A stretch of DNA of 54,458 nucleotides from positions 1 to 54,458 of the forward strand of contig JAILRO010000028.1 in assembly GCA_024698145.1 (NCBI GenBank), written 5' to 3'. Origin of the DNA: Lachnospiraceae bacterium (lineage in GTDB: Bacteria; Bacillota; Clostridia; Lachnospirales; Lachnospiraceae). Under the pieces are notes generated by a model that worked only from the letters and a program-made list of their open reading frames with translations, searched no databases and had not been told where the DNA came from. A program made the position numbers and the translations under genes. Of the stretch, positions 33,986 to 54,147 are shown piece by piece (the stretch's first letter is position 1; every line of letters starts with the position of its first letter).

Positions 33986-34127
33986 AGTTGTGTATGTCAC
34001 ATAGTTTCCATAAGCAGACCCTTTTTGACCGCCGGTACTTAATGAGCATGAAATGCGAATTTAGTACCGTTGCGCTCAAAGTGGAGCGAAAGCGTGTCTG
34101 TGTTGGAACTGTGTGACATACACAACT
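33986..34127 (+). repeat. structured repeat element, copy A (142 nt), inside the rib operon
   Basis: A long closing helix (33986-34009 with 34105-34127; one bulge, one G-U pair) encloses a conserved core: GCAGAC/GTCTGT, the CGGTACT/AGTACCG stem (34033-34039 with 34063-34069) capped by GCAT-GAA-ATGC, and a GC-GAAA-GC tetraloop hairpin at 34086-34093. The core is nearly identical to copies B and D while the helices covary. It lies between ribE and ribBA, so it is carried in the operon mRNA. No protein is encoded in it. Confidence 0.8.
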
Positions 34128-34173
34128 TAGGAAAAATATATATGAAAAAGAAAATACACAGGAGGAAATATAG

Positions 34174-35373
34174 ATGCCAGAATTTAATACACCGGAAGAA
34201 CTTGCAGCAGAACTTAAAGCGGGCAAGTGCATAGTTGTACTTGATGATGAAGACAGAGAAAATGAAGGAGATGTAATTTGTGCAGCAGAGTTTGCCACAA
34301 CAGAGAATGTGAACTTTATGGCAAGCTACGCAAAAGGTTTGATCTGTATGCCGATGGATCCAAGCTACACGGACAAGCTTCATTTACCGCAGATGTGCAT
34401 AACAAATACGGATAACCATTGTACTGCATTTTCTGTATCTGTTGACCATGTAAGCACAACAACAGGAATATCAGCGTTTGAGCGTGGAGTAACCGCAAGA
34501 AAGTTTGTTGAGGATGACGCAAAACCTGAAGATTTCAGAAGACCGGGTCACATGTTCCCGTTAGAAGCACGTCCGGGAGGAGTAATCGAGCGAAGAGGTC
34601 ACACGGAAGCAACAGTTGATTTCATGAAGCTTGCAGGACTTAAGCCAGTTGGACTTTGTTGTGAAATAATGAAGGACGACGGAAGCATGGCAAGACGAGA
34701 TGACTTGTTCGAGTTTGCGGCAAAACATGGACTTAAAATTGGAACTATCAAAGATCTTATCCAGTATCGTAAGGAACATGAGGTTTTCGTTGAGTGCGTT
34801 GCTAAGGCTAAGATGCCTACCCGTTATGGTGAGTTCACTATATACGGTTATGTCAATAAGTTAAATGGTGAACATCACGTGGCGCTTGTCAAAGGAGATA
34901 TAACGGACGGCGAGCCTGTGCTTTGCAGAGTGCATTCAGAGTGCCTTACCGGAGACGCACTTGGTTCTGCAAGGTGTGATTGCGGACAGCAGTATGATGC
35001 GGCGATGAAGATGATTGCAAAAGAAGGCAGAGGAGTGCTATTATATCTTAGACAGGAAGGTCGAGGTATTGGACTTATTAATAAGATTCGTGCCTATGAA
35101 CTTCAGGATCAGGGACGTGACACAGTAGAGGCTAATCTCGAGCTGGGCTTCCCTGAAGATGCAAGAGATTATACAATCGGAACACAAATCCTTGTTGATT
35201 TGGGCATCAAAGAGCTTCGCCTTATGACCAATAATCCACTTAAAGTATATGGACTTGAAGGTTATGGGCTCTCGATTGTAGAACGAGTTCCAATCATCAT
35301 GGAACCGGGAAAATACGATGCGTTCTACCTCAAAACAAAACAAGAAAGAATGGGACACATACTCAACCTATAA
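34174..35373 (+). CDS. ribBA: bifunctional DHBP synthase / GTP cyclohydrolase II
   Basis: A 399-residue fusion supplying both precursors of riboflavin. The N-terminal half (RibB) makes 3,4-dihydroxy-2-butanone 4-phosphate: [13 protein letters not shown] motif near residue 20 and G-H-T-E-A-T-V-D. The C-terminal half (RibA) opens [21 protein letters not shown] zinc site (three Cys) and [10 protein letters not shown]. An ACAGGAGGAA site precedes the start. It is separated from ribE by structured element A and followed by remnant C. Confidence 0.96.
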
Positions 35374-35378
35374 TTTTT

Positions 35379-35420
35379 ATGACGAGAGCGTGTCTGCGTT
35401 GAAACTATATAAATCGCATG
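35379..35420 (+). repeat. truncated remnant of the structured repeat element (copy C)
   Basis: About 31 nt after the ribBA stop (35379-35410) match the 3' part of element B, including the C-GAGA-G tetraloop region, GTGTCTGC and GAAAC-ATAT. The rest of the element is missing. Confidence 0.6.
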
Positions 35421-35446
35421 TTATGAATAATTAGGAGGAAATAAAA

Positions 35447-35908
35447 ATGAACACTTTAGAAGGAAAATTAGTTGCAAAAGATATGAAGGTCGGTGTTGTT
35501 GCCGCACGTTTTAACGAGTTTATCGTTTCAAAATTAATAAGTGGTGCTGTTGACGGTCTTACACGTCATGATGTTGATGAGGACAATATAACTCTTGCGT
35601 GGGTTCCGGGTGCATTTGAAATCCCTGTGGCTGCTAAGAAGATGGCAGAATCAGGCAAATATGATGCAGTTATATGTCTTGGTACAGTAATTCGTGGTGC
35701 TACAAGTCATTATGATTATGTATGTAACGAAGTATCAAAGGGTATTGCACAGGTATCGCTTAACACAGGCGTTCCTGTAATGTTTGGTATTGTTACAACA
35801 GAGAATATTGAGCAGGCAATTGAGCGTGCCGGAACAAAAGCAGGTAATAAGGGTTACGACTGTGCACTTGGTGCGATCGAGATGGTTAATCTTATGAAAC
35901 AGATGTAA
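35447..35908 (+). CDS. ribH: 6,7-dimethyl-8-ribityllumazine synthase
   Basis: A 153-residue subunit of the lumazine synthase capsid, which condenses the RibB and RibD products. Visible are V-A-A-R-F-N-E-F, the substrate loop [19 protein letters not shown] and the catalytic-His region, and [16 protein letters not shown] precedes the start. It is the last recognised biosynthetic gene of the operon, followed after 23 bp by a membrane protein gene. Confidence 0.96.
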
Positions 35909-35931
35909 TAATAAGGGTTCGGTGATATATA

Positions 35932-37782
35932 ATGTTGAGACTTGAAGACGAACAATTGCATACTTTGCTTGGGATTCTTTGTGGGGTTACATTGTTGCTT
36001 GCTGTGTTGTTCGGCGTGACCGATAAGAGCAGACAACTGATAAACGGTCATATATCAAAGATGAGCACGATATCGGAAGGTTGGGTTGTAACTTACGAAA
36101 CGTCTGACGAAGATAAAATAAAGGCTCGTGGAGAATGGCTGAGTGAAGAAAAAACTCAGACTATATCGGAAGTGGTTAATCTTCCTAATGATTTCAAATC
36201 GGTACCGGGAAAGGTTGTTACTTTGACCAATGTACTTCCGGATATGACGGAAGATGATATTTATCTTGTTGTAAAAACCGGCAAGGGACATGTTAAGATT
36301 TCCGTTAACAAGGAAATGATATATGACGATTCGGCGGAATATTATGTGTTCCCATATCATGTAATTAAGTTGGATTCGAAGTATAACAAGGGTGATATTT
36401 CGGTTTATGTCAAAAACAATGGTGGAGGTGCATCTGCCGAAGCTGTTAAAATAGGAACATTTACAGAACTTATAGGTGAGGCAATAAACGAAAACGGAAT
36501 ATTTGTTGTGTTTGCACTTTTTCTGTTTGTATCGGGAATATTCCTAATAATTAACTGCCTGCTGATTAAATCAGCCTTTAATAGGAAAAAGTTACTGGTC
36601 TATTCAGGACTTGAAACATTATCGGCCGGAGCAATGTTTTTGCTTCAAAGTAAGTTATTCCATACTATTCTTAATTGGGAAATGTTTGCATACTTTTTGC
36701 AATGCAGTATGGTTGTTATAGCGGCAGTGCTTCATTTGTTGGTTCAAAGAAGTCTTATACTGAGAAAGAAGTTTTTAACCGTAGTTGATTTTGGTATAAT
36801 CTTCTATTGCATAGTATATGTAAGTGTTATGGTTCTGAAATGGTTCAGACTTGTAACTTTTGATAAGGCGTACCTGATAGAACTTATACTTTTTGCCGTT
36901 GGAGTTATCATTTATACGCTTCTTATGGGAAGTGCATCTTACGACTACAAACAAAAAGAAGGTCGACCTTTGTTCGTTGCCAATCTTGTACTTATTGTGT
37001 CTGCGGTAATTGAACTGTTGTTATACCTTAGCAAATATGGACATGGCATAAACGGTAAGCCTATTATTGTGGGTTGCACCATTTACTTTGTGGTTATGTG
37101 GATGTATGGACTTAAACGTGCACATTACGTCGAAAAGGTAAAAGAGTCTGCCGGTGATGATATGGCAATCAAGGAGCAGGTTATTGAGCGCATTAATCCG
37201 AATCTGTTGTTTGCATCATTCCAGACCTTGCAGAACCTGATAAAAAAGGGTTCAAATCTCAGTGTGAAAATGATATACTATATATCCGTATATGTTCGTG
37301 ATAACATGTTATCGCTTACCGAACAGGGCGAAATGATTCCTTTCGGTGATGAACTTGAGCATATGCTTGCGTATTTACAGCTTCAAAAGATAAGGAATCG
37401 TAGTTTCGAATTTGCAATCGAGTGTAAGCATAAGGACTTTTATGTGCCACGTAATACTATTGAACCGATGGTTGAAAATGCTGTTAAGTATGGTATTGGT
37501 GGCAATAATAACACGGGTAATGTCGTTGTCCGCGTGTATGAGCGTGAAGAAGGATACGCAATTCAGGTTATTGATGACGGAATAGGTTTTGATGCCGGCA
37601 AACTTAAGAATACAAGTGCAACCAGCTTAAGAAACTTATTTGAAATATTAGAAAGCAAGTGTGAGGCAAAGACAGAAATTATTTCAAAAGAAGGAAAGGG
37701 TACGGTTATTACCATAATAATTCCTGCACTTGAGAATGAACTTGCGACTGAAGAAATCGAGGATTTTGATGATGAATTATAA
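35932..37782 (+). CDS. LytS/YehU-like membrane histidine kinase homologue lacking the phospho-His
   Basis: A 616-residue membrane protein. One N-terminal TM helix (~residues 12-30), an extracellular domain (~35-185), seven TM helices (~190-400; 7TMR-DISM-like order), then a cytoplasmic kinase-like module. The module has I-N-P-N-L-L-F-A-S-F where this family normally reads I-N-P-H-F-L-F-N-S: the phospho-accepting His is Asn. The ATPase part keeps its N-box (I-E-P-M-V-E-N-A-V-K-Y-G) and G-box (D-D-G-I-G-F-D). It may be a pseudokinase sensor or scaffold. It follows ribH by 23 bp and overlaps the next gene. Confidence 0.83.
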   Translation: MLRLEDEQLHTLLGILCGVTLLLAVLFGVTDKSRQLINGHISKMSTISEGWVVTYETSDEDKIKARGEWLSEEKTQTISEVVNLPNDFKSVPGKVVTLTNVLPDMTEDDIYLVVKTGKGHVKISVNKEMIYDDSAEYYVFPYHVIKLDSKYNKGDISVYVKNNGGGASAEAVKIGTFTELIGEAINENGIFVVFALFLFVSGIFLIINCLLIKSAFNRKKLLVYSGLETLSAGAMFLLQSKLFHTILNWEMFAYFLQCSMVVIAAVLHLLVQRSLILRKKFLTVVDFGIIFYCIVYVSVMVLKWFRLVTFDKAYLIELILFAVGVIIYTLLMGSASYDYKQKEGRPLFVANLVLIVSAVIELLLYLSKYGHGINGKPIIVGCTIYFVVMWMYGLKRAHYVEKVKESAGDDMAIKEQVIERINPNLLFASFQTLQNLIKKGSNLSVKMIYYISVYVRDNMLSLTEQGEMIPFGDELEHMLAYLQLQKIRNRSFEFAIECKHKDFYVPRNTIEPMVENAVKYGIGGNNNTGNVVVRVYEREEGYAIQVIDDGIGFDAGKLKNTSATSLRNLFEILESKCEAKTEIISKEGKGTVITIIIPALENELATEEIEDFDDEL

Positions 37783-38620
37783 TGCCCCGGAGGGCCCTAC
37801 AAACAAACAAATTAACAGTGACGAAAAAATGAGTATGGCAGACAGATTTATAAAGGCTATGTTTTTGCCGGGAGATTATCCGCAACTTATGAAGCTTAGC
37901 TTTGCCAAAGTTGTTACCTTTTTGTGTCTGCTTATATTTTTAGTGAGTTTTGTGCAATATGCAATTCCTGTGCTGGCAAGACTTGCCGGATACGGTGGCG
38001 TGAAAGATTATGTAATAGATGTACTTCCGGATTTCTCATTGAAAGATGGCGAGTTTTTTCTTTCGGAAAAGTATGAGAGAAATGATGAGGCGGTTAATTC
38101 ATATTATCTTATTGATACTAGCAAGGAAAGTTTTACGGCTGATGATGTAGATAGAGATAAGATGCAGGTTGTATTGGTGAGTCGTACAAACATACTCGTA
38201 TACAACAACGTAACAGGTCTTGGTGGATCAATTGAGGAAGAAAAGTTTTCGGACTTTTCCAGATTGATTATTGACAATGAAAGTGTGGCTTCGTTGGCAC
38301 CATTTATATATTTAGGGCTTTTTGGTATGTACATTCTCATGTACATTATGTGTTTTGTGAGATATTTGTTGTCAGCACTTTTCTATGCGTTTTTGATGTA
38401 TATATTAACAAGAGTCATGATGAGCAAATTGTCTTTTGGAATAATATACAAGATAGCACTTTTTGCGCAGACAATCGGAGCTTTGGTATCGGCAGTTGCA
38501 GTACTTGTCGGAACTCCATTATTCATTATGGCGGGAAGCACATTTGCAATGGTTGTAACCGTTATAATTATGAACAGAGCATTCTTTAAGATAGTTCCTC
38601 CACCTACAGTGCGAAGATAA
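37769..38620 (+). CDS. DUF1189-like multi-pass membrane protein
   Basis: A 283-residue membrane protein: cytoplasmic start, TM helix (~residues 40-60), a ~110-residue extracytoplasmic domain, then three or four TM helices up to the P-P-P-T-V-R-R end. The order fits DUF1189-type proteins (D-V-L-P-D-F-S-L-K-D-G-E-F region). The start ATG 37769 overlaps the kinase-like gene by 14 bp, with GAGG at 37759-37762, implying translational coupling and a joint role at the membrane. Function unknown. Confidence 0.75.
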   Translation: MMNYNAPEGPTNKQINSDEKMSMADRFIKAMFLPGDYPQLMKLSFAKVVTFLCLLIFLVSFVQYAIPVLARLAGYGGVKDYVIDVLPDFSLKDGEFFLSEKYERNDEAVNSYYLIDTSKESFTADDVDRDKMQVVLVSRTNILVYNNVTGLGGSIEEEKFSDFSRLIIDNESVASLAPFIYLGLFGMYILMYIMCFVRYLLSALFYAFLMYILTRVMMSKLSFGIIYKIALFAQTIGALVSAVAVLVGTPLFIMAGSTFAMVVTVIIMNRAFFKIVPPPTVRR

Positions 38621-38622
38621 CA

Positions 38623-38655
38623 AAAGTCGTCGGTTAATATACCGACGACTTTGTT
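38623..38655. terminator. bidirectional terminator
   Basis: A 12-bp perfect stem (38623-38634 with 38641-38652), loop TAATAT, A-tract left and TTTG-TTTTTT right. Shared by the convergent DUF1189-like and CYTH genes. Confidence 0.85.
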
Positions 38656-39134
38656 TTTTCTACAAGCTCATATGCTTCTTTGTCTGTTAGTTTGCTGAGT
38701 GTTGAATTGTGATAGGTACCTTCATCGGTAACATCACGTCCAAACCAATCCGGTGCGACGTAACTGTTGGCACTTTCTTCATTTTCAAACTCGACCTCTG
38801 CAAGATACAATCCGTTAAGTTCTCCGTGAAAAACATCCAACTCGATAGTGAGATTGTTCTTTTCTGGGATTAAGTATCTTGTCTTACTTATAACCATACC
38901 ATCAGCCTTGCCAAGCAAAGTTTTGTATGCTTCTTCGTTAAGCGGAAACTCGTGCTCTTCTCTTTTCATAAAACCCTCGCCCTTGTACGTGAGAATATAC
39001 TTATCATCTTTCTTCCTAACCCTAAGCACCGGGTTGGTGATTATATACGCCTGCTCGAGTTCATGTGAATCGTAACTTTCAAGGTCGACGGGTAAATCCT
39101 TCTCACTTACAAGATACTTTCTTTCTATTTCCAT
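38634..39134 (-). CDS. CYTH-domain protein (triphosphatase-like)
   Basis: A 166-residue CYTH-fold protein. The signature E-I-E-R-K-Y-L-V (ExExK) begins at residue 2, followed by tunnel-lining basic and acidic residues (R-V-R-K-K-D-D-K-Y, T-I-E-L-D-V-F, L-A-E-V-E-F). Bacterial members hydrolyse inorganic tripolyphosphate or related triphosphates; a few are class IV adenylate cyclases, which is less likely here. A GGAAT/AAAGGAA-type site precedes the start. Confidence 0.88.
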   Translation of the reverse strand: MEIERKYLVSEKDLPVDLESYDSHELEQAYIITNPVLRVRKKDDKYILTYKGEGFMKREEHEFPLNEEAYKTLLGKADGMVISKTRYLIPEKNNLTIELDVFHGELNGLYLAEVEFENEESANSYVAPDWFGRDVTDEGTYHNSTLSKLTDKEAYELVEKTKSSVY

Positions 39135-39284
39135 AACATTTCAATTCCTTTCTTTTTTCTTTTCTCGTCGCTTTCTTTATGTCTATGCCCTTATCTCTCT
39201 TTTATGTACATAGTTGAACAAATTGTCAATATGATTAAATCAAGCAAGGGGTCAATGATTGGCATCTTTATTGAATGTGTATAT

Positions 39285-39426
39285 GTTGCATGTCTGTCAT
39301 ATGATTTTATAAGCAGACCCTTTTTAGCCGCCGGTACTTAGTGAGCAGTAATGCGAACTTAGTACCGTTGCGCGTAAAACGGAACGAGAGTGTGTCTGCG
39401 ATGAAACCATATGACAGACATGCAAC
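39285..39426 (+). repeat. structured repeat element, copy B (142 nt)
   Basis: A 19-bp perfect closing helix (39285-39303 with 39408-39426) of a different sequence from copy A encloses the same core: GCAGAC/GTCTGC, CGGTACT/AGTACCG (39332-39338 with 39361-39367) capped by GCA-GTAA-TGC, and an AC-GAGA-GT hairpin (39384-39391). It lies alone in the 395-bp gap between the divergent CYTH and DJ-1 genes, upstream of the DJ-1 promoter. Apart from this element and the promoter I see nothing else in the gap. Confidence 0.8.
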
Positions 39427-39452
39427 TGTAATTCGTTTAATTATATCACACA

Positions 39453-39481
39453 TTGAACCCATTGTGTATTTGTGCTATATT
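39453..39481 (+). promoter_or_regulatory. promoter of the DJ-1 family gene
   Basis: TTGAAC (39453-39458), 17-bp spacer, TATATT (39476-39481) preceded by TGC (extended -10). Confidence 0.65.
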
Positions 39482-39529
39482 TAATGTATTGTTTAACGGT
39501 AAATTAAAAGAAAATCAGGAGGGTTAGAC

Positions 39530-40078
39530 ATGAAGAAAGCATATTTATTTTTTGCTGAAGGCTTTGAAGAAGTGGAAGCACTTACTGTTGTTGATTTATT
39601 AAGGCGTGGAAAGGTGGATTGCGTAACAGTATCAATAACAGGTGATTATGATGTGACAGGTTCACATGGAATAGTAATAAGAGCAGACAGACTTTTTGAA
39701 GAAGGTGATTTGTCTGATGCAGATATGATAATACTTCCGGGTGGAATGCCGGGAACAAATTATCTTAAGGCACACGCAGGTCTTGATAAGCTCATACACA
39801 GTTATGTGGATGCAGGCAAGTATCTTGCAGCAGTATGTGCAGCGCCAACTGTATTTGGTGAAAAAGGACTTTTGAAAGGTAAAAATGCAACTTGTTATCC
39901 GGGTATGGAAGCAGGCCTTGTTGGTGCAACACCTAAAAAGGATTCCGTAGTTCATGACGGTCAGTTTATTACAAGTCGTGGTATGGGTACTTGTATTGAT
40001 TTTGGATTGAAACTTTTGGAACTTTTAGAGGGCAAAGAGATATCCGATAACATAGGTAAAGCTGTAGTTTATCTGTAA
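39530..40078 (+). CDS. DJ-1/PfpI family protein
   Basis: A 182-residue DJ-1 superfamily protein. The acid residue in F-A-E-G-F-E-E-V-E-A and the nucleophilic elbow A-A-V-C-A-A-P-T (Cys near residue 103) match the DJ-1/YajL clade rather than plain proteases. Members act as glyoxalase/deglycase-type or oxidative-stress proteins; the exact activity is disputed in the literature. AGGAGG precedes the start. Confidence 0.9.
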   Translation: MKKAYLFFAEGFEEVEALTVVDLLRRGKVDCVTVSITGDYDVTGSHGIVIRADRLFEEGDLSDADMIILPGGMPGTNYLKAHAGLDKLIHSYVDAGKYLAAVCAAPTVFGEKGLLKGKNATCYPGMEAGLVGATPKKDSVVHDGQFITSRGMGTCIDFGLKLLELLEGKEISDNIGKAVVYL

Positions 40079-40135
40079 TTATAAGAACGTGATTACACAT
40101 CAGATTGTAAATCAATTGAAATAACGAGGATTAAC

Positions 40136-42493
40136 ATGTACGAAATAAGCACGTCCGTAAGAGGACTCGTCGAGTTTATTTTTAGAAGTGGTGATATTGC
40201 ACCGGGTGACGGTACATCTTCCAAGGAAGCCATGCTTGCAGGAGGACGCATTCACAGGAAAATTCAAGGCAAGATGGGCCTTGATTACGAGGCAGAAGTT
40301 CCACTTCGAATCGAAATAGAAAAAACTGATTATGTTCTCACAATAGAAGGTCGTGCTGATGGAATAATAACAAATGATAAGGGCGTAACTATTGATGAGA
40401 TAAAAGGTGTTTACAAAAAGCTGGACAATATGGAGCAACCTATATATGTCCACAAGGCACAGGCAATGTGTTACGCCTACATTTATGCCCGAAAAAATGA
40501 ACTGGAAAGTATAAATGTCCGAATGACATATTGCAATCTTGACACAGAGGAAATCAAACTCTTTGAAGAAGCATTTACTTACGAGACTTTGGAGAAATGG
40601 TTTGATGACCTTGTAGAAGAGTATTGTAAATGGATGCAGTTTGATGTGGACAACAGAAAACTTCGTAATGAGTCTGTAGTAAATCTTGCGTTTCCGTATG
40701 ACTACAGACCTGGGCAGAAGGATATGGCGGCTACGGTATATCTTTCGATAAAGAATAAAAAGAATCTTTTTGTTCAGGCACCGACCGGAATCGGTAAAAC
40801 GATGGCTGCTCTTTTTCCGGCAATACAGGCAATGGGTAATGGTTATGGGGAGAAACTTTTTTATCTGACAGCCAAGACGATTGCAAGAAGTGTTGCACTT
40901 GATGGATTAGAGGTATTAAGAGCGAAGGGGTTGCATTTTCGAAGTGTGCTTATAACTGCCAAGGAAAAAATATGCCCGATGGAGGAGACAAACTGCGATC
41001 CGGAATATTGTCCCTATGCCAAGGGACATTATGACAGAATCAATAAAGCAATGTATGATGTTCTTGAACATGAGGATAATATAACGAGAGATGTTATTCT
41101 TGATTATGCCAACAAACATATGGTGTGTCCTTTTGAAATGGGACTTGATGTGAGTTTGTTTGTAGATGGAATAATATGTGACTACAACTATGTTTTTGAT
41201 CCGAGAGTAAAACTTAGAAGGTACTTTGGTGAGGGCGCAAAAGGTGGGTTTATATTTCTGACAGACGAGGCACACAACCTTGTTGATCGTGCATCATCAA
41301 TGTATAGTGCGGAAATATACAAAGAAGATTTTCTTAACATGAGAAAACTTCTAAAGCCGTATAACGCCAAAATTGCAAAACTGCTTGGTGATTGCAACAA
41401 GGAATTGTTGGAAATGAAAAAGCTTTGTGACAATCAAAAAGGTTATGTGCTTGTTGCGGAAATTGATTCTTTGTATGTTAAGCTTATGAGACTTCATGCA
41501 CACATGGAATCATTTATGGAAGAAAGCAAAGAGATTAATTCTTTGAAGTCGCATAAAGATGAGATACTTGATTTTTATTTTTCAATAAATCAGTTTTTGA
41601 ATATCTATGATCTTGTTGATGACAGTTATGAGATATACGCAGAACAGGTAAGTCCAACTTCGTTTATGCTAAAACTTTATTGCATTCATCCTGCGAAGAA
41701 TCTTTCGGATTGTGTTGATAAGGGGAATGCAACGATATTCTTTTCCGCAACGATGCTTCCGATAACTTACTATAAGGAGCTTCTTAATAACAATGAATCG
41801 GATGGAGCAATATATATTCCTTCACCGTTTCCGAAAGAGAATCGTGCGCTGCTTATAGGAACGGATGTCAGTAGCAGATACACTTTGCGTGGACCGGCTA
41901 TGTATGAGAAAATTGCCCGGTATGTCGATATACTAGTGCATGGTAAAAAAGGAAATTATATGATATTCTTTCCTTCCTATAAGATGCTAAATGATGTTTA
42001 TGAGGTGGTTGTCGCACTTGATCTCATTTCTGATGTGGAGATTATAAGACAGGAACAACATTTTAACGAAGAGGACAGGGAACATTTTATAGAACGGTTT
42101 AAGGATAATGACAATGCTGTCGTTGGGTTCTGTATCTTGGGTGGAATATTCTCGGAAGGAATTGACCTTGCGGGTGAGCATTTGATTGGTGCGGCGATTG
42201 TCGGAACAGGACTTCCTATGGTATGTAATGAGAATGAAATAAAGCTTGATTATTTTGCTGAAAGAAAAGGAAACGGATTTTGTTATGCATATTTGTATCC
42301 CGGAATGAATAAAGTACAACAGGCGGCGGGACGAGTTATAAGAACGATGGAGGATAGAGGAATAATATTGCTGTTAGACGAACGATTTGTGACCGGACAG
42401 GTGGTTGATACATTCCCTGCAGAGTGGGCGGATTATAGGACTGTAACACTTGATAATGTGGCACAGTGTGTAGATGCGTTTTGGCAAAATTAA
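40136..42493 (+). CDS. PD-(D/E)XK nuclease - XPD/DinG-like Fe-S helicase fusion
   Basis: A 785-residue protein joining two activities. Residues ~1-170 have a Cas4/RecB-like nuclease core: G-R-A-D-G-I, then D-E-I-K-G, then Q-A-M-C-Y-A-Y. From residue ~190 a superfamily 2 helicase shows Walker A A-P-T-G-I-G-K-T, four Cys spaced for an Fe-S cluster (C-P-M-E-E-T-N-C-D-P-E-Y-C plus V-C-P-F near residue 331), D-E-A-H box, F-F-S-A-T-M motif and motif VI Q-A-A-G-R-V-I-R. It probably unwinds and trims DNA in repair. The start is ATG 40136 with AACGAGG upstream. Confidence 0.9.
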   Translation: MYEISTSVRGLVEFIFRSGDIAPGDGTSSKEAMLAGGRIHRKIQGKMGLDYEAEVPLRIEIEKTDYVLTIEGRADGIITNDKGVTIDEIKGVYKKLDNMEQPIYVHKAQAMCYAYIYARKNELESINVRMTYCNLDTEEIKLFEEAFTYETLEKWFDDLVEEYCKWMQFDVDNRKLRNESVVNLAFPYDYRPGQKDMAATVYLSIKNKKNLFVQAPTGIGKTMAALFPAIQAMGNGYGEKLFYLTAKTIARSVALDGLEVLRAKGLHFRSVLITAKEKICPMEETNCDPEYCPYAKGHYDRINKAMYDVLEHEDNITRDVILDYANKHMVCPFEMGLDVSLFVDGIICDYNYVFDPRVKLRRYFGEGAKGGFIFLTDEAHNLVDRASSMYSAEIYKEDFLNMRKLLKPYNAKIAKLLGDCNKELLEMKKLCDNQKGYVLVAEIDSLYVKLMRLHAHMESFMEESKEINSLKSHKDEILDFYFSINQFLNIYDLVDDSYEIYAEQVSPTSFMLKLYCIHPAKNLSDCVDKGNATIFFSATMLPITYYKELLNNNESDGAIYIPSPFPKENRALLIGTDVSSRYTLRGPAMYEKIARYVDILVHGKKGNYMIFFPSYKMLNDVYEVVVALDLISDVEIIRQEQHFNEEDREHFIERFKDNDNAVVGFCILGGIFSEGIDLAGEHLIGAAIVGTGLPMVCNENEIKLDYFAERKGNGFCYAYLYPGMNKVQQAAGRVIRTMEDRGIILLLDERFVTGQVVDTFPAEWADYRTVTLDNVAQCVDAFWQN

Positions 42494-42511
42494 CTTGTAT
42501 TTAAAAAATGC

Positions 42512-42539
42512 TTGTGGTACACTTCAAGCGGGGTATAAT
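42512..42539 (+). promoter_or_regulatory. promoter of the HAD-murF unit
   Basis: TTGTGG (42512-42517), 16-bp spacer, perfect TATAAT (42534-42539). Confidence 0.65.
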
Positions 42540-42562
42540 GAGGCGATTACAAAGGAGAAATC

Positions 42563-44835: not shown

Positions 44836-44871
44836 ATTTTTACGATTTTAATGAAAAAGGAGGTACGTATT

Positions 44872-45411: not shown

Positions 45412-45437
45412 GCAAATTTATCTACGGTTAATAAGTT

Positions 45438-45467: not shown

Positions 45468-45538
45468 GTGCATTTTGTCGTGAAAGTTCAGATTTTTTTT
45501 TCTTTGCTTGTCGATACTAGAGAAAATTTTATAAAAAG

Positions 45539-45567
45539 TTGCAAATTGTTATTTTTTGGAGTAGTAT
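45539..45567 (+). promoter_or_regulatory. promoter of the Lys/Ala-rich protein gene
   Basis: TTGCAA (45539-45544), 17-bp spacer, TAGTAT (45562-45567). A ~70-nt leader follows. Confidence 0.5.
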
Positions 45568-45637
45568 GAACATTGAAGTTAGGCAACTTGAGTTTTTATT
45601 CATAAATATTTTTTTATTGAAAATGGAGGAGTAAGAA

Positions 45638-46078: not shown

Positions 46079-46096
46079 TTTATAAGTTGAACAAAC

Positions 46097-46130
46097 AAGG
46101 ACATCGGAATTATCCGGTGTCCTTTTCTTT
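46097..46130 (+). terminator. terminator after the Lys/Ala-rich protein gene
   Basis: A 12-bp stem (46097-46108 with 46113-46124, one G-U pair), ATTA loop, TTTTCTTT tail. Confidence 0.85.
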
Positions 46131-46156
46131 ACTTATTTCTTGTTTTCTATTATAAT
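46128..46156 (+). promoter_or_regulatory. promoter of proC
   Basis: TTTACT (46128-46133), 17-bp spacer, TATAAT (46151-46156), directly after the preceding terminator. Confidence 0.6.
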
Positions 46157-46225
46157 CATTTTATGTGGAAACTTGTTTTCACTATTGATGACAATGCGGA
46201 TTTTTGACACGAGGAGAGATTGACG

Positions 46226-47020: not shown

Positions 47021-47052
47021 AAATATTATAACATTATAGGAGGTTTCATACT

Positions 47053-47733
47053 ATGAAGTACGAAGTTATTGGCAACACAGTACCTGCTGTAGAGGTAACT
47101 CTTGACAACGGAGAGGGAATGTACACACAAAGTGGCGGTATGGTATGGCAGACAGAAGGCATCGAAATGGCAACTAACACTAAGGGTGGTCTCATGAAGG
47201 GTCTTGGAAGAATGCTTGCCGGCGAGTCACTCTTTATGGCAACGTATACATCGCACAAAGATGGAGCCAAAATTGCATTTGGTGCTACAGTTCCGGGAGA
47301 TGTTATTCCTGTTAATCTTTCAGGTACTCCAGGTATTATCGCACAGAAGAAGGCATTCCTTTGCGCACAGGAGGGTGTTAATGTAAGCATTACTCTCACA
47401 AAGAAGTTTGGTGCAGGCTTATTCGGTGGTGAAGGATTTATCTTACAGGATATTTCCGGTGATGGATATGCTTTCCTTGAGGTGGATGGTGATCAGGTTG
47501 TCAAAGAGCTTGCTGCAGGTGAGGTTATCAAGGTTGATACAGGTAATGTAGTAGCATTTGATAAGACAGTATCTTATGAAGTTGAGACTGTTAAAGGAAT
47601 TGGTAATATCTTCTTTGGTGGTGAGGGATTATTCCTTACTAAGCTTACAGGTCCTGGTCGTGTAATATTACAGACACAGAACTTCAACGATTTTGCAAGT
47701 CGTATTATTGCAATGATGCCAAGCAAGGGTTGA
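47053..47733 (+). CDS. AIM24/TIGR00266-family protein
   Basis: A 226-residue beta-rich protein of the AIM24 family (TIGR00266). It shows the usual glycine-turn pattern: M-Y-T-Q-S-G-G-M-V-W, G-L-G-R-M-L-A-G-E-S, and L-F-F-x-G-E-G-like repeats near the C-terminus (F-G-G-E-G-L-F-L). Biochemical function is unknown. TAGGAGG precedes the start. It begins 32 bp after proC and is probably co-transcribed with it. Confidence 0.88.
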   Translation: MKYEVIGNTVPAVEVTLDNGEGMYTQSGGMVWQTEGIEMATNTKGGLMKGLGRMLAGESLFMATYTSHKDGAKIAFGATVPGDVIPVNLSGTPGIIAQKKAFLCAQEGVNVSITLTKKFGAGLFGGEGFILQDISGDGYAFLEVDGDQVVKELAAGEVIKVDTGNVVAFDKTVSYEVETVKGIGNIFFGGEGLFLTKLTGPGRVILQTQNFNDFASRIIAMMPSKG

Positions 47734-47813
47734 AGTGCGGCGGAATCAGTTATTGATATATTCAGTTAGTGATTCCCGGCTCTGCGGAGCACAGATTATA
47801 ATAAGAACTTACG

Positions 47814-47842
47814 TTGTGCAGGCTTTTGAAAGGTCTGCACAA
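47814..47842 (+). terminator. possible weak terminator or leader hairpin
   Basis: An 8-bp perfect stem TTGTGCAG/CTGCACAA (47814-47821 with 47835-47842) followed by CAATTTTATC, in the 150-bp gap before the K+ channel gene. It lacks a long T-run, so its role is unclear. Confidence 0.4.
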
Positions 47843-47884
47843 CAATTTTATCTACGGTTAATTTCTTTTGATGAGGTATTGAAA

Positions 47885-49075
47885 GTGACTGATAATAAGA
47901 ATAATTGGAATCGAATTAAGAAAAGATTGTTTTCAATGGTGTCTGTGGGAGTTGTAGATGAACCCATTAATCAGGCTTACGATGTTATAAGTACGGGTGC
48001 ACTTATAATTAATCTTGTTGCTGCAATTATGAACACCTATGATAATTTAGCTATCAAATATGATGGAACTTTTGCAATTGTAGAGAAAATTACTGTAGCT
48101 TTTTTTGCTATAGATTTTATATTAAGAATGATTACGGCTACGGAGTTGTATCCGGGAGTTAAAACGGTAAAGGCTGTTGGTAAGTATGTGTTTTCTTTTT
48201 CAGGAATAGTTGACTGGTTATCATTTATTCCGTATTATCTTCCGGTCTTTTTCCCGAGCGGTGCAGCGGTATTTCGTATGTTCCGAGTGGTAAGGATATT
48301 AAGATTATTCAGAATAAATGCCTATTATGATTCGTTGAATGTTATTACGGAAGTATTGTCTTCAAAAAAGCAACAGTTGATGTCTTCTGTATTCATTATA
48401 GTAATACTTATGATTGCCTCAAGTTTGTGCATGTATAGTGTTGAGCATGTGGCACAGCCGGATGTATTTCAGAATGCGTTTTCAGGAATATGGTGGGCTG
48501 CGTCAACATTGCTTACTGTCGGTTACGGCGACATTTATCCTGTTACAACGCTTGGAAAGTTTTTTGGAATACTGATTGCATTTTTAGGAGTCGGAATGGT
48601 TGCTATTCCAACAGGTATTATTTCCGCCGGATTTGTCGAGCAATACACACGACTTAAAGAACTGGGTGATTTCGCTGCGGAACATAGCATCAATTTTATC
48701 GAGATATTGCTTGATAAAAAGGATAAATGGGTAGGTTCCTTTATCAAAGAGCTAAATCTTCCTGATAATACAATTATTGCCATGGTCAAAAGAGGCGAAG
48801 AGATTTTATTCCCTAAAGGAGATACCAAACTTCAAGCGGGTGATATTGTGGTGCTTGGCTCAGATGTAATTGATGGTGTGGCGCCGCTTCAACTTACTGA
48901 GGTGAATGTTGGAAGTGAACATCCGTGGAAGAATCAGTTAATAAGGGATTTGGATATTTCACGAAAAATGCTCATTGTTGTGGTAAAAAGAAAGAATAAA
49001 TCATTGGTTCCTGACGGCGATACCATGATTAAGGAAGGCGATGTGGTTGTAATAAGCGATTTTCGCAAACACTAA
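47885..49075 (+). CDS. voltage-gated-type potassium channel with two C-terminal TrkA-C-like domains
   Basis: A 396-residue membrane protein. Six TM helices with an S4-like basic helix (F-R-M-F-R-V-V-R-I-L-R-L-F-R-I), a pore loop with the selectivity filter T-V-G-Y-G-D, and a cytoplasmic tail. The tail holds two related ~60-residue modules of TrkA-C/RCK-C type (L-F-P-K-G-D-T-K-L-Q-A-G-D-I-V-V and L-V-P-D-G-D-T-M-I-K-E-G-D-V-V-V), which in relatives bind regulatory ligands such as cyclic dinucleotides. I chose GTG 47885 because GAGGT is at 47874-47878; the frame is open to 47735 but has no site there. Confidence 0.88.
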   Translation: MTDNKNNWNRIKKRLFSMVSVGVVDEPINQAYDVISTGALIINLVAAIMNTYDNLAIKYDGTFAIVEKITVAFFAIDFILRMITATELYPGVKTVKAVGKYVFSFSGIVDWLSFIPYYLPVFFPSGAAVFRMFRVVRILRLFRINAYYDSLNVITEVLSSKKQQLMSSVFIIVILMIASSLCMYSVEHVAQPDVFQNAFSGIWWAASTLLTVGYGDIYPVTTLGKFFGILIAFLGVGMVAIPTGIISAGFVEQYTRLKELGDFAAEHSINFIEILLDKKDKWVGSFIKELNLPDNTIIAMVKRGEEILFPKGDTKLQAGDIVVLGSDVIDGVAPLQLTEVNVGSEHPWKNQLIRDLDISRKMLIVVVKRKNKSLVPDGDTMIKEGDVVVISDFRKH

Positions 49076-49115
49076 CTTCCTATATTAGCCAATAGAATTT
49101 TGCAAAAAAGAGTGA

Positions 49116-49121
49116 TATAAT
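49116..49121 (+). promoter_or_regulatory. extended -10 promoter of the ClpX-like gene
   Basis: TATAAT (49116-49121) preceded by TGA; the -35 region (TAGAAT at 49093-49098) is poor. Confidence 0.5.
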
Positions 49122-49168
49122 CGGTTGTACGAAATATAAGGATTCATATATGATTATGGAGGATGAAT

Positions 49169-50548
49169 ATGGATAATAATGATAACATAGATAATAAGGA
49201 TGACAATTACGAAAAGTATTGTTATTTGTGCAGAAGACCTGAATCGAAAGTGGGCAAGCTTATATACATGCCAAATAACATTAACATTTGTCAGGATTGT
49301 ATGCAGAAAACTTTTGACAGTTTTTCGGGCGGCGGAATGCAGTTCATGGATCTTTCGAACATGCCGAATCTTAACATGAACCAGTTTACGCCGGTTAATG
49401 ATATTCCAAATAGTCAGAAGGTTAAGAAGAAAAAAGAGAAGAAAAAAGAAGCTGAAGAACCGGAGATGACGCTTTCGACAATTCCTGCGCCTCATGAGAT
49501 GAAGGCGAAACTTGATGAATATGTAATAGGACAGGAACATGCGAAAAAGGTTATTTCGGTTGCGGTTTATAATCATTACAAACGTGTGCTTACCGACACT
49601 ATGGATGATATCGAAATAGAGAAGTCTAACATGCTTATGGTTGGACCTACCGGTTCAGGTAAGACATATCTTGTTAAGACTATTGCCAGAATATTAAATG
49701 TTCCCCTTGCCATCACGGATGCAACGACTCTTACGGAGGCAGGATACATAGGCGATGATGTAGAGAGTGTGCTTTCTAAGTTGTTGGCTGCTGCTGATAA
49801 TGATGTGGAAAAGGCAGAACGCGGAATTGTATTTATTGATGAGATTGATAAAATTGCGAAAAAGAGAAACACTAATTCAAGAGATGTAAGTGGTGAGGCG
49901 GTTCAGCAAGGACTCTTAAAACTTCTCGAAGGAGCGGAGGTTGAAGTTCCTGTAGGTTCCGGAAGTAAGAATGCCATGGTGCCGCTTACTACAATTAATA
50001 CAAGAAATATTTTATTTATATGCGGTGGCGCATTTCCGGATATTGAGGACGTTATCAAAGCAAGGTTAAATGAGCAATCTTCGATAGGCTTTAGAGCAGA
50101 CCTTAAGGATAAGTATGATGAGGATAGGAATCTTCTTCAAAAAGTAACGGTAGAAGATCTTAGGGAGTTTGGTATGATACCGGAGTTTCTTGGACGTCTT
50201 CCTGTGTTGTATGCGCTTGAAGGTTTGGATGAGGATATGCTTGTTAAGATTCTCAAAGAGCCGAAGAATGCAATACTTAAGCAGTATCAGAAACTTTTAT
50301 CACTTGATGGGGTTGATCTTCGTTTTGATGATGGTGCATATCATGCAATAGCTAAGAAAGCTATGGAAAAGAAGACCGGTGCAAGAGCACTTCGTGCGAT
50401 TATTGAAGAGTTTATGCTGGATATTATGTATCAGATTCCAAGAGATGATAATATCGGTCGTGTTACAATTACTCAAGAGTACATTGAAGGAACGGGCGGG
50501 CCTTTGTTAGAGATGAGGGGTGTGCTTGCTCTGGAAAATGATGAATAA
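49169..50548 (+). CDS. clpX: ClpX-like AAA+ unfoldase
   Basis: A 459-residue ATPase. An N-terminal C4 zinc site (C-Y-L-C ... I-C-Q-D-C) and a Gly/Met/Asn-rich linker precede the AAA+ module: Walker A G-P-T-G-S-G-K-T-Y, pore loop G-Y-I-G-D-D-V-E-S (GYVG-type), Walker B I-V-F-I-D-E-I-D-K, I-G-F loop for ClpP docking (S-S-I-G-F), and sensor-2 T-G-A-R-A-L-R. All ClpX hallmarks are present, but linker and several blocks differ from the housekeeping ClpX and neither tig nor clpP is adjacent, so it may be a second paralogue. ATG 49169 fits the GGAGG spacing better than ATG 49163. Confidence 0.88.
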   Translation: MDNNDNIDNKDDNYEKYCYLCRRPESKVGKLIYMPNNINICQDCMQKTFDSFSGGGMQFMDLSNMPNLNMNQFTPVNDIPNSQKVKKKKEKKKEAEEPEMTLSTIPAPHEMKAKLDEYVIGQEHAKKVISVAVYNHYKRVLTDTMDDIEIEKSNMLMVGPTGSGKTYLVKTIARILNVPLAITDATTLTEAGYIGDDVESVLSKLLAAADNDVEKAERGIVFIDEIDKIAKKRNTNSRDVSGEAVQQGLLKLLEGAEVEVPVGSGSKNAMVPLTTINTRNILFICGGAFPDIEDVIKARLNEQSSIGFRADLKDKYDEDRNLLQKVTVEDLREFGMIPEFLGRLPVLYALEGLDEDMLVKILKEPKNAILKQYQKLLSLDGVDLRFDDGAYHAIAKKAMEKKTGARALRAIIEEFMLDIMYQIPRDDNIGRVTITQEYIEGTGGPLLEMRGVLALENDE

Positions 50549-50592
50549 GATTTAGATTATAAAAGATAGATATAAGGAGGAACAAAGAGGGT

Positions 50593-51972
50593 ATGGAACG
50601 TAGAAATGCATGGAAAGATTACGACAAAAAAGACATTAAAGAACTTGAGCAGTTGTGCAAGGGCTATCGTAAGTTCTTGGATAACGGTAAGACTGAAAGA
50701 GAGTGTGTAAAAGAGCTTGTCAAGATGGCGGAAGGTGCCGGCTATGTTGACGTTGAAGAGTTTAGAAAGTCTAAGAAGAAGCCTAAAAAGGGTGATAAAA
50801 TATATGCGGTTAATATGAAAAAAGCAATTGCTTTGTTCAATATAGGTTCAGAACCGCTTGTAAACGGAATGAACATTCTTGGTGCACATATTGATTCACC
50901 ACGTATGGATGTAAAGCAGAATCCTTTATATGAGGACACTGACCTTGCTTACCTTGACACCCACTATTACGGCGGAATTAAGAAGTATCAGTGGGTAACA
51001 CTTCCCCTTGCAATTCACGGTGTTGTAGCCAAGAAGGATGGAGAGGTTGTAGATGTAGTTGTCGGTGAGGATGAAAAGGACCCTGTTTTCTGTGTGTCTG
51101 ACTTGCTTATACATCTTGCACAGGATCAGATGGATAAGAAAGGTGCTAAGGTTGTTGAAGGAGAACAGTTAGATATTCTTGTTGGAAGTAAACCACTTCC
51201 AAAAGAGGAGAAGGACGCTGTTAAGAAGACGGTTCTTGAAGTATTTAAGAAGAAATATGACATCGAGGAAGAAGATTTCCTTTCGGCAGAACTTGAAATT
51301 GTGCCTGCCGGAAAGGCAAGAAACATGGGATTTGATGAATCCATGATAATCGGTTACGGACAAGATGACAGAGTATGTTCTTATACATCGGCTGTCGCAA
51401 TGTTTGATATGATAAATGTAAAACGTACAGCATGCTGCTTGCTTGTGGATAAAGAAGAAATCGGTTCTGTGGGTGCTACGGGAATGCAGTCTAAGTTCTT
51501 TGAAAATACGGTTGCGGAACTTATGGATATGATGGGCGACTATTCAGAACTTAAGCTTAAGAGAACTCTTGCTAATTCGTTTATGCTTTCATCTGATGTT
51601 TCGGCAGCGTTTGATCCAAACTATGCGGATGCTTTTGAGAAGAAGAATTGTGCATACTTTGGACGTGGCGTTGTGTTTAATAAGTTCACCGGTGCACGTG
51701 GTAAGTCTGGTTCAAATGATGCCAATGCTGAATACATCGGAAAACTTCGCAAGATTATGGATGACAATAACGTTGCTTTCCAGACTGCGGAACTTGGTAA
51801 GGTTGATAAGGGAGGCGGAGGAACAATCGCCTATATTCTTTCACTGTATGATATGAATGTTATTGATAGTGGTGTTGCTGTTCTTAACATGCATGCACCA
51901 TGGGAGATAACAAGTAAGGCTGATATATACGAAGCTTATAAGTCATACAAAGCTTTTCTTAAAGATGCGTAA
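50593..51972 (+). CDS. M18-family aminopeptidase
   Basis: A 459-residue cytosolic metallo-aminopeptidase of the aspartyl aminopeptidase (M18) family. Metal and catalytic regions visible: G-A-H-I-D-S-P-R near residue 98, the central D-D-R-V-C-S-Y and D-K-E-E-I-G-S motif (bridging metal and general base), and the C-terminal L-N-M-H-A-P-W-E metal His. It removes N-terminal residues from peptides. It lies 44 bp downstream of the ClpX-like gene on the same strand and may share its transcript, which would link unfolding and peptide breakdown. AAGGAGG at 50574-50580. Confidence 0.92.
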   Translation: MERRNAWKDYDKKDIKELEQLCKGYRKFLDNGKTERECVKELVKMAEGAGYVDVEEFRKSKKKPKKGDKIYAVNMKKAIALFNIGSEPLVNGMNILGAHIDSPRMDVKQNPLYEDTDLAYLDTHYYGGIKKYQWVTLPLAIHGVVAKKDGEVVDVVVGEDEKDPVFCVSDLLIHLAQDQMDKKGAKVVEGEQLDILVGSKPLPKEEKDAVKKTVLEVFKKKYDIEEEDFLSAELEIVPAGKARNMGFDESMIIGYGQDDRVCSYTSAVAMFDMINVKRTACCLLVDKEEIGSVGATGMQSKFFENTVAELMDMMGDYSELKLKRTLANSFMLSSDVSAAFDPNYADAFEKKNCAYFGRGVVFNKFTGARGKSGSNDANAEYIGKLRKIMDDNNVAFQTAELGKVDKGGGGTIAYILSLYDMNVIDSGVAVLNMHAPWEITSKADIYEAYKSYKAFLKDA

Positions 51973-52001
51973 GTTTAAATATATTATTATAGTGTAAATG
52001 C

Positions 52002-52038
52002 AAGTCGGTAGATAATCAAATTATCTGCCGACTTTTTG
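52002..52038 (+). terminator. terminator after the M18 aminopeptidase gene
   Basis: A 15-bp stem (52002-52016 with 52020-52034, one G-U pair), CAA loop, TTTTT run. Confidence 0.88.
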
Positions 52039-52207
52039 GTTGTATTAAATTGACCCTGTTTGTGATGTTATGCAAACAAGAATATCTATGATTAGTGGAT
52101 GCTTATATAGATAATGAATAGGAAATTATGTAAACTGACGCAAATGTATGTATCTACTTTGTTATTACAGAATATATTGATAGTAATATATAGTTTGGGA
52201 TGTAATC

Positions 52208-53956
52208 ATGGATTGCGAAGAAATGATATATAGTAATGAATATGCGGATTATGTGATTAACTCTTTTGATTTGATAATTGATGGAGATGAAAGTGATTGT
52301 TGTACCAATCCGATAATGGAAAAAATAGCAATACAGCATTGTCCGCAAAAGGAACAAAGACTGACGAATCTTGAGTCGGTTCCGTATTCATTTATTCCAA
52401 AGTTATATGGCCTGATGGATTCCGGGAATATGGAGGTTACCGGTGTTAAGAAGGTGCAAGAAACAGGTAATCTAGGTCTTTCCGGCAGGGGAGTAGTTGT
52501 AGGGATTATTGATACGGGCATAGATTTCAAGAACAACCTGTTTCGTGATGAAAAAGGAGATAGCAGGATTAGTATACTATGGGACCAGACAATACCTCGT
52601 AACGATACAATTGAAGGAAGTGTGAATGTGGGTATGCCATTGCCGGTATACGGAACGGTATTTGATAATAATAAAATCAACAATGCATTAAGAAGCGATA
52701 ATCCGTTTGATATTGTTCCTTCAAGGGATGACGAGGGACATGGAACATATATGGCAGGAATAATAGCCGGTGGTGCGGATGTTGATAACGATTTTTTGGG
52801 GATTGCTTATGAGTCAGAGATTGCAGTTGTCAAAATCAAGGAATGTAAGCCGTATCTAAAGGAGTATTTTGGCGTGCGTCAGGATGCAAAGGCATATCAG
52901 GAGACGGATATTATATATGCGATTTCGTATTTGATTCAATATGCAAGGTACAGACGTATGCCGATTTCGATATATATTGGGATGGGAAGTAGCAACGGTG
53001 GACATTTGGGGTACACATTTTTGGAAAGATATTTAGATAACGTATTGGAAGATAGGGCGATTATGGTAAGTGTGCCTGCAGGCAATGAAGGTAATGAAAG
53101 GCTGCATTACTCCGGCGAAATACCGGAAACAGCGGAGTATGATATTGTTGAGTTAAATGTTGCCGAAGGACAGAATACATTGACATTAGAACTTTGGGGA
53201 AATGCGCCAACGACCTTTGCAATTGGAATAGATGCTCCGGGAGGGGAGAGGATAGAAAGAATAGTGCCTCGTTTTGGGAGTGAAGAACTGGTGGGCTTTC
53301 CAATAACAAGGACATCAGTATATGTCGCATATCAGTTGGTAGAAGTATATTCCGGCGATGAACTTATATTCATACGGCTTAATGCACCGACACCGGGAAT
53401 ATGGCGCTTTCGTGTGTATGCAGATGAAGGACGTCAAAGAACGTATAATATGTGGATGCCCCTAAGACAATTCTTGCAGTCGGAAACATATTTCTTGCGA
53501 CCGGAACCGGAAAACACTGTGACGAATCCGGGCAACGCAAGACTTGTGATGACAATGACAGCTTACAATCATGTAAATGAAAGTCTGTATGCAAGAGCGG
53601 GGCGAGGATATACGGCAAGAAATGTTGTAAAGCCTTCGCTTGCAGCACCAGGTGTTAATGTATTTGGACCGGGGCAAAGCCGTGGGTATGTCACGAGAAC
53701 CGGTACTTCGGTTGCTGCGGCGCATAGTGCAGGAATGCTTGCGCTCTTTTTGCAATGGAATCTTAATAATATGGAGTTTGGATTCTTTTTTGCGGAGCAA
53801 ATAGAGAGTTTCTTTTTCAGAAGTGCGACAAGAGAATTAGAATATGATTATCCAAACATAGTGTGGGGATATGGAATAATGAATATATGGAACGTTTTTG
53901 AAACCTTTCGGATTGTAGATATATCGAAACTGAACCGAGTGAACGAAAGAATTTAA
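52208..53956 (+). CDS. Csp-like S8 family serine protease
   Basis: A 582-residue subtilisin-like protease of the CspA/B/C-like group known from clostridia. The catalytic triad is intact: Asp in I-I-D-T-G-I-D-F (near residue 102), His in D-E-G-H-G-T-Y-M-A-G (near 178) and Ser in R-T-G-T-S-V-A-A-A-H (near 498). The ~180-residue insert between His and Ser regions is the jellyroll domain typical of Csp proteins. No signal peptide is visible. In spore formers Csp proteases act in germination; outside that setting their role is unclear. Confidence 0.9.
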   Translation: MDCEEMIYSNEYADYVINSFDLIIDGDESDCCTNPIMEKIAIQHCPQKEQRLTNLESVPYSFIPKLYGLMDSGNMEVTGVKKVQETGNLGLSGRGVVVGIIDTGIDFKNNLFRDEKGDSRISILWDQTIPRNDTIEGSVNVGMPLPVYGTVFDNNKINNALRSDNPFDIVPSRDDEGHGTYMAGIIAGGADVDNDFLGIAYESEIAVVKIKECKPYLKEYFGVRQDAKAYQETDIIYAISYLIQYARYRRMPISIYIGMGSSNGGHLGYTFLERYLDNVLEDRAIMVSVPAGNEGNERLHYSGEIPETAEYDIVELNVAEGQNTLTLELWGNAPTTFAIGIDAPGGERIERIVPRFGSEELVGFPITRTSVYVAYQLVEVYSGDELIFIRLNAPTPGIWRFRVYADEGRQRTYNMWMPLRQFLQSETYFLRPEPENTVTNPGNARLVMTMTAYNHVNESLYARAGRGYTARNVVKPSLAAPGVNVFGPGQSRGYVTRTGTSVAAAHSAGMLALFLQWNLNNMEFGFFFAEQIESFFFRSATRELEYDYPNIVWGYGIMNIWNVFETFRIVDISKLNRVNERI

Positions 53957-54002
53957 ATTGCTGTTTAGTTACATTTTACGAGCGAAACTTCTAATTGTTT
54001 TA

Positions 54003-54147
54003 AGGCGTCTCTTATGATTGCAGTTCCTACGCAGGCAAGCTTTCGCCCGTTTTGAGCGCAACGGTACTAAGTTCGTACTACGTACTCACTAAGTACCGGC
54101 GGTCAAAGAGGACCTGCTTATGGATACTGCAACATAATTCGACGCCT
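54003..54147 (-). repeat. structured repeat element, copy D (145 nt, minus strand)
   Basis: The reverse complement carries the same core as copies A and B: CCGCCGGTACTTAGTGAG, GAACTTAGTACCGTTGCGC, and the GC-GAAA-GC hairpin (54046-54039). The closing helix AGGCGTC/GACGCCT (54003-54009 with 54141-54147) plus an inner TTGCAGT/ACTGCAA stem differs from the other copies but pairs. The cap hairpin reads TAC-GTA-GTA, a compensatory change from GCA/TGC. It lies antisense downstream of the S8 protease gene. Confidence 0.8.

Follow-up and report, generated by a model that had tools for sequence, protein, structure and literature searches.

The contig JAILRO010000028.1 of the Lachnospiraceae bacterium assembly GCA_024698145.1, whose 54,458 nucleotides make up the stretch of DNA analyzed here (the window), carries three copies, A, B and D, of a short folded element that an earlier note on this DNA had proposed to be either a structured RNA family or a structured non-autonomous mobile element. 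Comparison of sequences indicates, with a probability of about 0.75, that these copies belong to a family of non-autonomous DNA transposons of Lachnospiraceae that resemble miniature inverted-repeat transposable elements (MITEs) and have a conserved folded RNA as their interior, and both halves of the proposal thus appear to hold together for the family. As is typical of MITEs, units in a genome of the same genus share terminal inverted repeats, are mostly flanked by target duplications, hold no internal transposase where searched and have a related autonomous element.

Mobile units and their inverted ends

Genomes G015 and G007 belong to the same genus as the window. In G015, numerous near-identical copies lie in a unit that begins with TAGGCAATTGCGAAACTC, closes with its inverted repeat and has a direct duplication at its flanks. 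In total, 119 ends in this genome match TAGGYANTTGCGAAACTC with at most 2 mismatches, while the reversed control pattern has 0 matches. Thirty end loci were followed, 22 of which yield paired units of 205-577 bp and 8 of which do not; the core is present by pattern in 19 of the 22 units, and a variant core is recognizable by eye in the other 3 (L289, L290, and L305). With at most 1 mismatch and 0-2 nt of slack allowed at the ends, a target duplication of 9-13 bp flanks 20 of the 22 units compared with 1 of 462 mismatched flank pairs, and only L284 and L299 have none. No gene was found inside the three units (260-577 bp) that were searched for frames, the longest being 35-78 aa and none exceeding 78 aa. 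Two of the units with a variant core, L305:1501-2076 and L289:942-1518 (576-577 bp), are giant hairpins from nearly end to end with that core at the head, and fold at -259 and -256 kcal/mol, respectively, on the strand given.

A potential partner for these units is an insertion sequence of 1,770 bp in G007 (L310:592-2361), which has ends like theirs and an 11-bp duplication, TCATTTTAACC. It encodes a transposase of 491 aa with a DUF772 match and a DDE_Tnp_1 match slightly under the cut-off. Against the NCBIfam model for IS1182, the transposase reaches 1e-19 and 70.8 bits but not the curated cut-off of 270, which is consistent with a distant relative of IS1182, and, as the ends are shared, it may well mobilize the units in trans. 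Unlike the units, the insertion sequence is without the hairpin core.

Units with three different inverted ends hold the core. The 11 copies in the CAJTEN genome lie in 187-bp units with ends AATGTCATTAAGTTAAG, which are other than those of the TAGG type, and a direct duplication of 10-12 bp is found in 7 of the 11 copies compared with 46 of 380 mismatched flanks, a control that is high because the flanks are themselves repeats. In the window's genome (G000), copies of the D type are part of a composite unit (427-629 bp) bounded by TTGCTGTTTA ends, both of which are present in five distinct complete copies (L025, L033, L034, L044, and L316). By inspection, still other end sequences seem to occur in Agathobacter, JAJQAC and other groups. 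Four of the five complete composites also contain, on the strand opposite to the core, TwoAYGGAY (RF01731), which places this Rfam motif within a repeat unit in G000. The same genome has 21 TwoAYGGAY matches, 18 of them above the cut-off; the motif is here part of a transposon-like composite repeat and may itself be a mobile-element RNA. Among 100 loci, all 8 pairs of cores less than 300 nt apart are divergent, the minus-strand core preceding the plus-strand one (L322, L335, L093, L167, L028, L340, L341, and L128), while same-strand pairs lie about 440-510 nt apart at L119 and L141.

Fold of the core and the strand under selection

The core is an RNA-like domain of about 100 nt that comprises a long closing helix (P1), a helix P2, an arm P3/P4 and a GNRA hairpin, and the P3/P4 arm has a U.U mismatch, three base pairs, tandem G.A pairs and a cap. 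An optional extra hairpin of 50-60 nt and of the same design may stand on the GNRA hairpin or on P4; as read by eye, it repeats the order stem, U.U, three pairs, G.A/G.A, stem, loop. A second repeat first seemed to interrupt some copies at TCCCCTCTCTC, but the insert is actually an extra hairpin of about 58 nt, beyond which the core resumes.

The earlier note had described core blocks and compensating changes shared by the three copies. Both are seen in the three-way alignment and are maintained in an alignment of 50 copies (A2), hand-chosen for spread from 84 diverse seeds and leaving out extension-bearing copies. RNAalifold finds 21 pairs in these 50 copies, and both sides have changed in 14 of the 21. 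Paired cells amount to 96.1%, compared with 85.3% after shuffling of partners and 21-40% after sliding of the structure along the alignment, and the covariation score is 0.397 compared with 0.191 for shuffled partners (reached by 0 of 500) and 0.045-0.127 for slid structures, figures that are not probabilities in the case of the shuffles because the sequences are related. The larger alignment thus retains the covariation first noticed in three copies. A covariance model built from the 50 copies (R1) recovers A, B and D with the scores given in Table 1, which are high partly by construction since A, B and a copy of the D type are among the seeds. Among 117 R1 matches, which come from 100 chosen loci and take in nearly all 50 seeds, 111 keep the 5' side of the tandem G.A pairs and 112 keep their 3' side, and the GNRA loop, which was not among the letters of the search pattern, is present in 112.

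The window copies themselves were found where they had been described, and the folds claimed for them are borne out, as 0 of 200 dinucleotide shuffles reach the stability of A, B or D (z scores in Table 1). The plus strand of the element has the more stable fold in all three, at -71.7 vs -62.8 kcal/mol for A, -70.7 vs -66.0 kcal/mol for B and -67.6 vs -65.8 kcal/mol for D. A remnant copy C, claimed without coordinates, did not materialize; with E up to 10, R1 recovers from the window only A, B and D, plus two weak antisense matches that fall within A and D (E of 0.96 and 0.66).

Pairing alone does not distinguish a folded RNA from a palindrome maintained as DNA. In a palindrome maintained as DNA, G.U and A.C mismatches should be equally frequent, while in a selected single strand G.U is tolerated, and we therefore counted both in arm alignments that score every mismatch equally, using 160 of 178 folded copies (163 in a version without the folding step). 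The inner 20 bp of P1 have 110 G.U and 33 A.C, and the outer arms have 111 and 144. With one copy per arm cluster (74 representatives), the counts are 58:14 for the inner and 44:66 for the outer part (Fisher p 6e-8), and the inner ratio without the folding step is 83:26. Pairs of the core give 27:9 in the seeds and 54:12 in the 117 matches. These ratios suggest that selection acts on one single strand throughout the core and the inner ~20 bp of P1, whereas the outer arms behave as DNA. The long closing helices emphasized previously therefore stand only in part: they fold as claimed, but farther than about 20 bp from the core their pairing does not count as evidence of the RNA type, because G.U and A.C are about equal there, and long covarying closing helices alone do not prove RNA function.

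The same counts bear on the idea that the whole element is a DNA palindrome in which pairing is kept by template-switch correction, so that covariation is mutational rather than selected. Template-switch correction acts on quasipalindromes during replication, and it may well explain the outer arms, which remain paired for tens of bases without an excess of G.U and which, where 46 bp or longer, are nearly perfect and differ from copy to copy in some genomes. As an explanation of the element as a whole we consider it improbable, as it predicts neither that G.U exceeds A.C three- to fourfold in the core and inner P1 nor that the unpaired GNRA loop and the tandem G.A pairs are conserved. Long, near-perfect closing arms, copy-specific even within one genome, were observed at L080, L114, L123, L138 and L167, and such arms could come from template-switch correction or from insertion into hairpins.

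Distribution, orthologous sites and the window copies

The family is abundant and widespread. The core of A has 40 BLAST matches in G000, and R1 finds 54, some of them partial at contig ends. In a sample of 150 Lachnospiraceae genomes, each from a different genus, 68 have an R1 match at E <= 0.001, and several have at least 26 matches each. A pattern scan of named contigs returned at least 113 stretches, and among the 80 listed the titles are mainly Lachnospiraceae, Agathobacter, Butyrivibrio and other Clostridia, largely from metagenome assemblies, with one Bacteroides sp. A known RNA family can be set aside, since no Rfam 15 family matches the core at or above its gathering score in the window or in six further loci, in agreement with the earlier failure to recognize a named class, and nothing beyond matches far under the cut-off came from permissive Rfam scans of copy A, a 576-bp unit and an extension-bearing copy. 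A phage or plasmid element was likewise rejected: with copy A as the query (D-type copies were not included), one weak phage match (E=5) and zero plasmid matches were obtained, and the exact core pattern is absent from viral contigs. No name for the family and no description of one like it was found in the open-access papers searched, a search that left subscription papers mostly outside and ISfinder unsearched and is not proof that the family is unpublished.

The presence of copies differs between close relatives. Copies A and B and 20 further loci of G000, 22 in all, were compared with the near relative G002, and an orthologous place was found for 21, that is, for all except L026. At 10 of the 21 the element is missing in G002 (A, L002, L003, L019, L023, L024, L027, L029, L031, and L040), at 8 it is present (B, L004, L009, L010, L017, L018, L028, and L032), and the remaining 3 are composite loci not assigned to either class (L013, L025, and L034). 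The change is a loss at L002, where the relative retains the closing stem and a few core letters, and is best read as an insertion at L031, because the relative's two genes overlap by one base and leave no room between them; most other loci could be read either way. Some shared copies may be independent insertions, as the subtypes differ at L004 and the closing arms differ at L018 and L032. The G000 and G002 copies differ by an entire extra hairpin at L028 and L032, and at L010 and L017 the cap hairpin is swapped as a block relative to the G002 orthologues without loss of pairing, which resembles the outcome of conversion between copies. Where A lies in G000, the element is absent in G002 and G006, and an extension-bearing element is present in G013. 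Copy B is nearly identical in G002, and no core was seen by eye upstream of B's gene in 10 other readable loci, a further 10 loci not having been viewed.

Short palindromes at A's site in G002 and G004, along with the palindromic repeats that flank CAJTEN copies, had raised the possibility that insertion occurs only into existing hairpins, and this was rejected. Strongly complementary flanks (14-16 of 16) are found in 4 of the 11 CAJTEN copies (L092, L098, L099, and L111), and the other 7 have 5-8; with copies counted on both strands, the mean complementarity of a copy's own flanks is 9.5, compared with 9.2 across copies and 6.9 after shuffling. Some of the palindromic sites that look empty are deletion scars, as the relative's stem and core letters at L002 indicate.

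These data also bear on whether the copies are a host gene family, riboswitch-like or trans-acting, that simply lies near repeats. A compact core with a GNRA loop that is conserved across the family would be expected of such genes, but presence and absence at orthologous sites, target duplications, the near-identical burst in G015 and the occurrence of copies in both orientations to their neighbors make this very improbable.

The features of the window are collected in Table 1. Judging from Pfam matches, copy A lies between the genes for riboflavin synthase (33286-33957) and ribBA (34174-35373), all co-oriented, and copy B between a CYTH-domain gene (38634-39134, -) and a DJ-1/PfpI gene (39530-40078, +). 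In the region of A, 0 promoter-like sites were called (0.7 expected) and 1 terminator-like site (0.1 expected), which lies ahead of the copy at 33915-33929. The region of B has 4 promoter-like sites (2.0 expected, sd 1.4), one of which overlaps the first 3 bases of B, the others being outside it. In the scan of both regions, no terminator-like site was called within A or B. Frames within the copies are short, at most 48 codons from stop to stop, and two longer antisense frames in the mechanical list of open reading frames cross copy A. A flavin mononucleotide (FMN) riboswitch lies 5' of the riboflavin genes, with copy A about 0.9 kb downstream on the same strand.

Table 1. Positions of the element copies and associated features in the window
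Feature	Positions	Strand	Details
FMN riboswitch	33006-33134	+	
Copy A	33986-34127	+	142 nt; closing helix P1 and core; fold z -10.7; negative in scan for terminal inverted repeats
Core of copy A	34004-34110	+	R1, 107.6 bits
Copy B	39285-39426	+	142 nt; closing helix and core; fold z -11.3
Core of copy B	39303-39408	+	R1, 105.2 bits
Inverted end TTGCTGTTTA of the composite repeat of copy D	53958-53967	+	Partner end expected past the contig end
Copy D	54003-54147	-	145 nt; hairpin within a larger composite repeat; fold z -8.5
Core of copy D	54022-54127	-	R1, 95.4 bits
TwoAYGGAY RNA (RF01731)	54293-54456	+	83.7 bits; in the composite of copy D, on the strand opposite to the core

Possible roles and relation to known repeats

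What the fold might do for a mobile unit is a more tentative matter. We lean, with reservations, toward a role in cis in read-through transcripts, because A and others lie between close co-directional genes, no terminator-like site was called in A or B, and the family is similar to the bcr repeats discussed below. Under this possible mechanism, units that land between operon genes would be transcribed through, and the self-contained fold would insulate itself from the flanking mRNA in the read-through transcript and probably change the processing or decay of that mRNA, as intergenic MITE-like repeats elsewhere may do. Folding at the RNA level would then make insertions tolerable or tune the mRNA, and copies such as A and B would have lost recognizable ends and retained the fold.

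Orientation to neighboring genes provides a means of weighing a role in cis. From a set of 168 copies, 11 in long frames, 12 too distant from genes and 2 lacking a gene on one side were dropped, and of the 143 that were classified, 57 are sense and 47 antisense between co-directional genes, while 39 lie between divergent or convergent genes. Among co-directional copies, 11 of 14 are sense in G000 and 6 of 7 in G002, which would be consistent with antisense copies having been gradually lost in the lineage of the window. The ratio of G.U to A.C is 36:9 for sense copies, 21:8 for antisense copies (p 0.02) and 14:5 for copies between divergent or convergent genes (p 0.06).

Several observations weigh against the transposon with an RNA interior, or against its proposed role in cis. 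Regarding mobility, neither A nor B has a terminal inverted repeat recognizable by scan, and for this reason the evidence for their mobility comes from relatives and from empty sites; none of the 5 composite copies has a target duplication; and DDE_Tnp_1 transposases number 0 in each of G000, G002 and G015, with 5 in G007. Regarding the RNA, the U.U mismatch and tandem G.A pairs occur in 50 of 50 seeds, an invariance partly built in because the search patterns fixed most such letters and allowed at most 2 substitutions, and the structure of the model itself guided the alignment of its matches. Single-stranded DNA tolerates G.T as well, so the strand test cannot tell it from RNA, although RNA is the likelier of the two. 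Regarding the role in cis, the sense bias in G000 and G002 is small, post hoc and based partly on orthologous loci, and other sets have none (8 of 16 in G015, 26 of 51 in the named contigs, and 6 of 16 in other genomes). The similar G.U ratio of antisense copies is not predicted by a purely cis-acting role in mRNA, although part of it may come from master copies.

An excess of G.U that is independent of orientation points instead to master copies or the element itself as the target of selection, and it is possible that the plus-strand fold serves propagation, for example through a transposase or host factor that binds the transcript of the unit or its exposed single-stranded DNA. The nearly even orientation overall and the 8:8 split in the young burst of G015 are what this would predict, and similar cores do ride units with different inverted ends. 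The partner insertion sequence, however, is coreless and so seemingly needs no core for its own movement, and an ordinary DDE transposon would have ends and duplications of this kind. On balance, we consider selection through propagation rather unlikely. A related idea, which we regard as speculative and doubtful, is that the RNA core rather than the DNA ends is what persists, as one selfish RNA domain adopted by several types of MITE with different ends; the plus strand would then have to fold for the unit to spread or be tolerated, a DNA-transposon analogue of the conserved RNA heads of short interspersed nuclear elements (SINEs).

Whichever role applies, the family adds an abundant combination of structured RNA and mobile element to a major bacterial family of the gut and rumen. 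Because G.U and A.C counts separate RNA-like from DNA-like parts of one palindrome, it also offers a natural test of RNA-level selection on bacterial MITEs, and it opens the question of why a mobile DNA element retains an RNA shape.

Among known systems, TwoAYGGAY is described as a candidate structured RNA from the human gut, gamma-Proteobacteria and Clostridiales (PMC2864571). It shares a composite repeat with the D-type core, but the core itself matches neither RF01731 nor any other Rfam family. The ERIC, REP and BIME repeats of enterobacteria are, like the present family, intergenic, hairpin-forming and high in copy number. By description, the present family is set apart from them by target duplications and by a multi-helix core with conserved unpaired motifs.

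The closest known kind, by analogy, would seem to be the bcr repeats of Bacillus cereus, for which the primary papers on bcr1-bcr3 are reportedly those of Okstad (2004), Klevan (2007) and Kristoffersen (2011). The bcr repeats are often located in untranslated regions or between operon genes. In one account, bcr1-bcr3 of the B. cereus group are short, intergenic, MITE-like repeats with tens of copies per genome (PMC6542083). In another, the intergenic bcr repeats of one strain lie within an mRNA in 50.9% of cases and those of a second strain in 40.0%, and a correlation is described between bcr3 and mRNA decay (PMC3446304). The former account confines bcr1 to one species group and ties its mobility to a TTTAT motif (PMC6542083), whereas the Lachnospiraceae cores span a bacterial family in units with different ends, one type of which has IS1182-like ends and duplications of 9-13 bp. 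The two families are likened by description rather than by sequence, and what they share is a short, mobile, intergenic repeat that may enter the mRNA of its neighbors.

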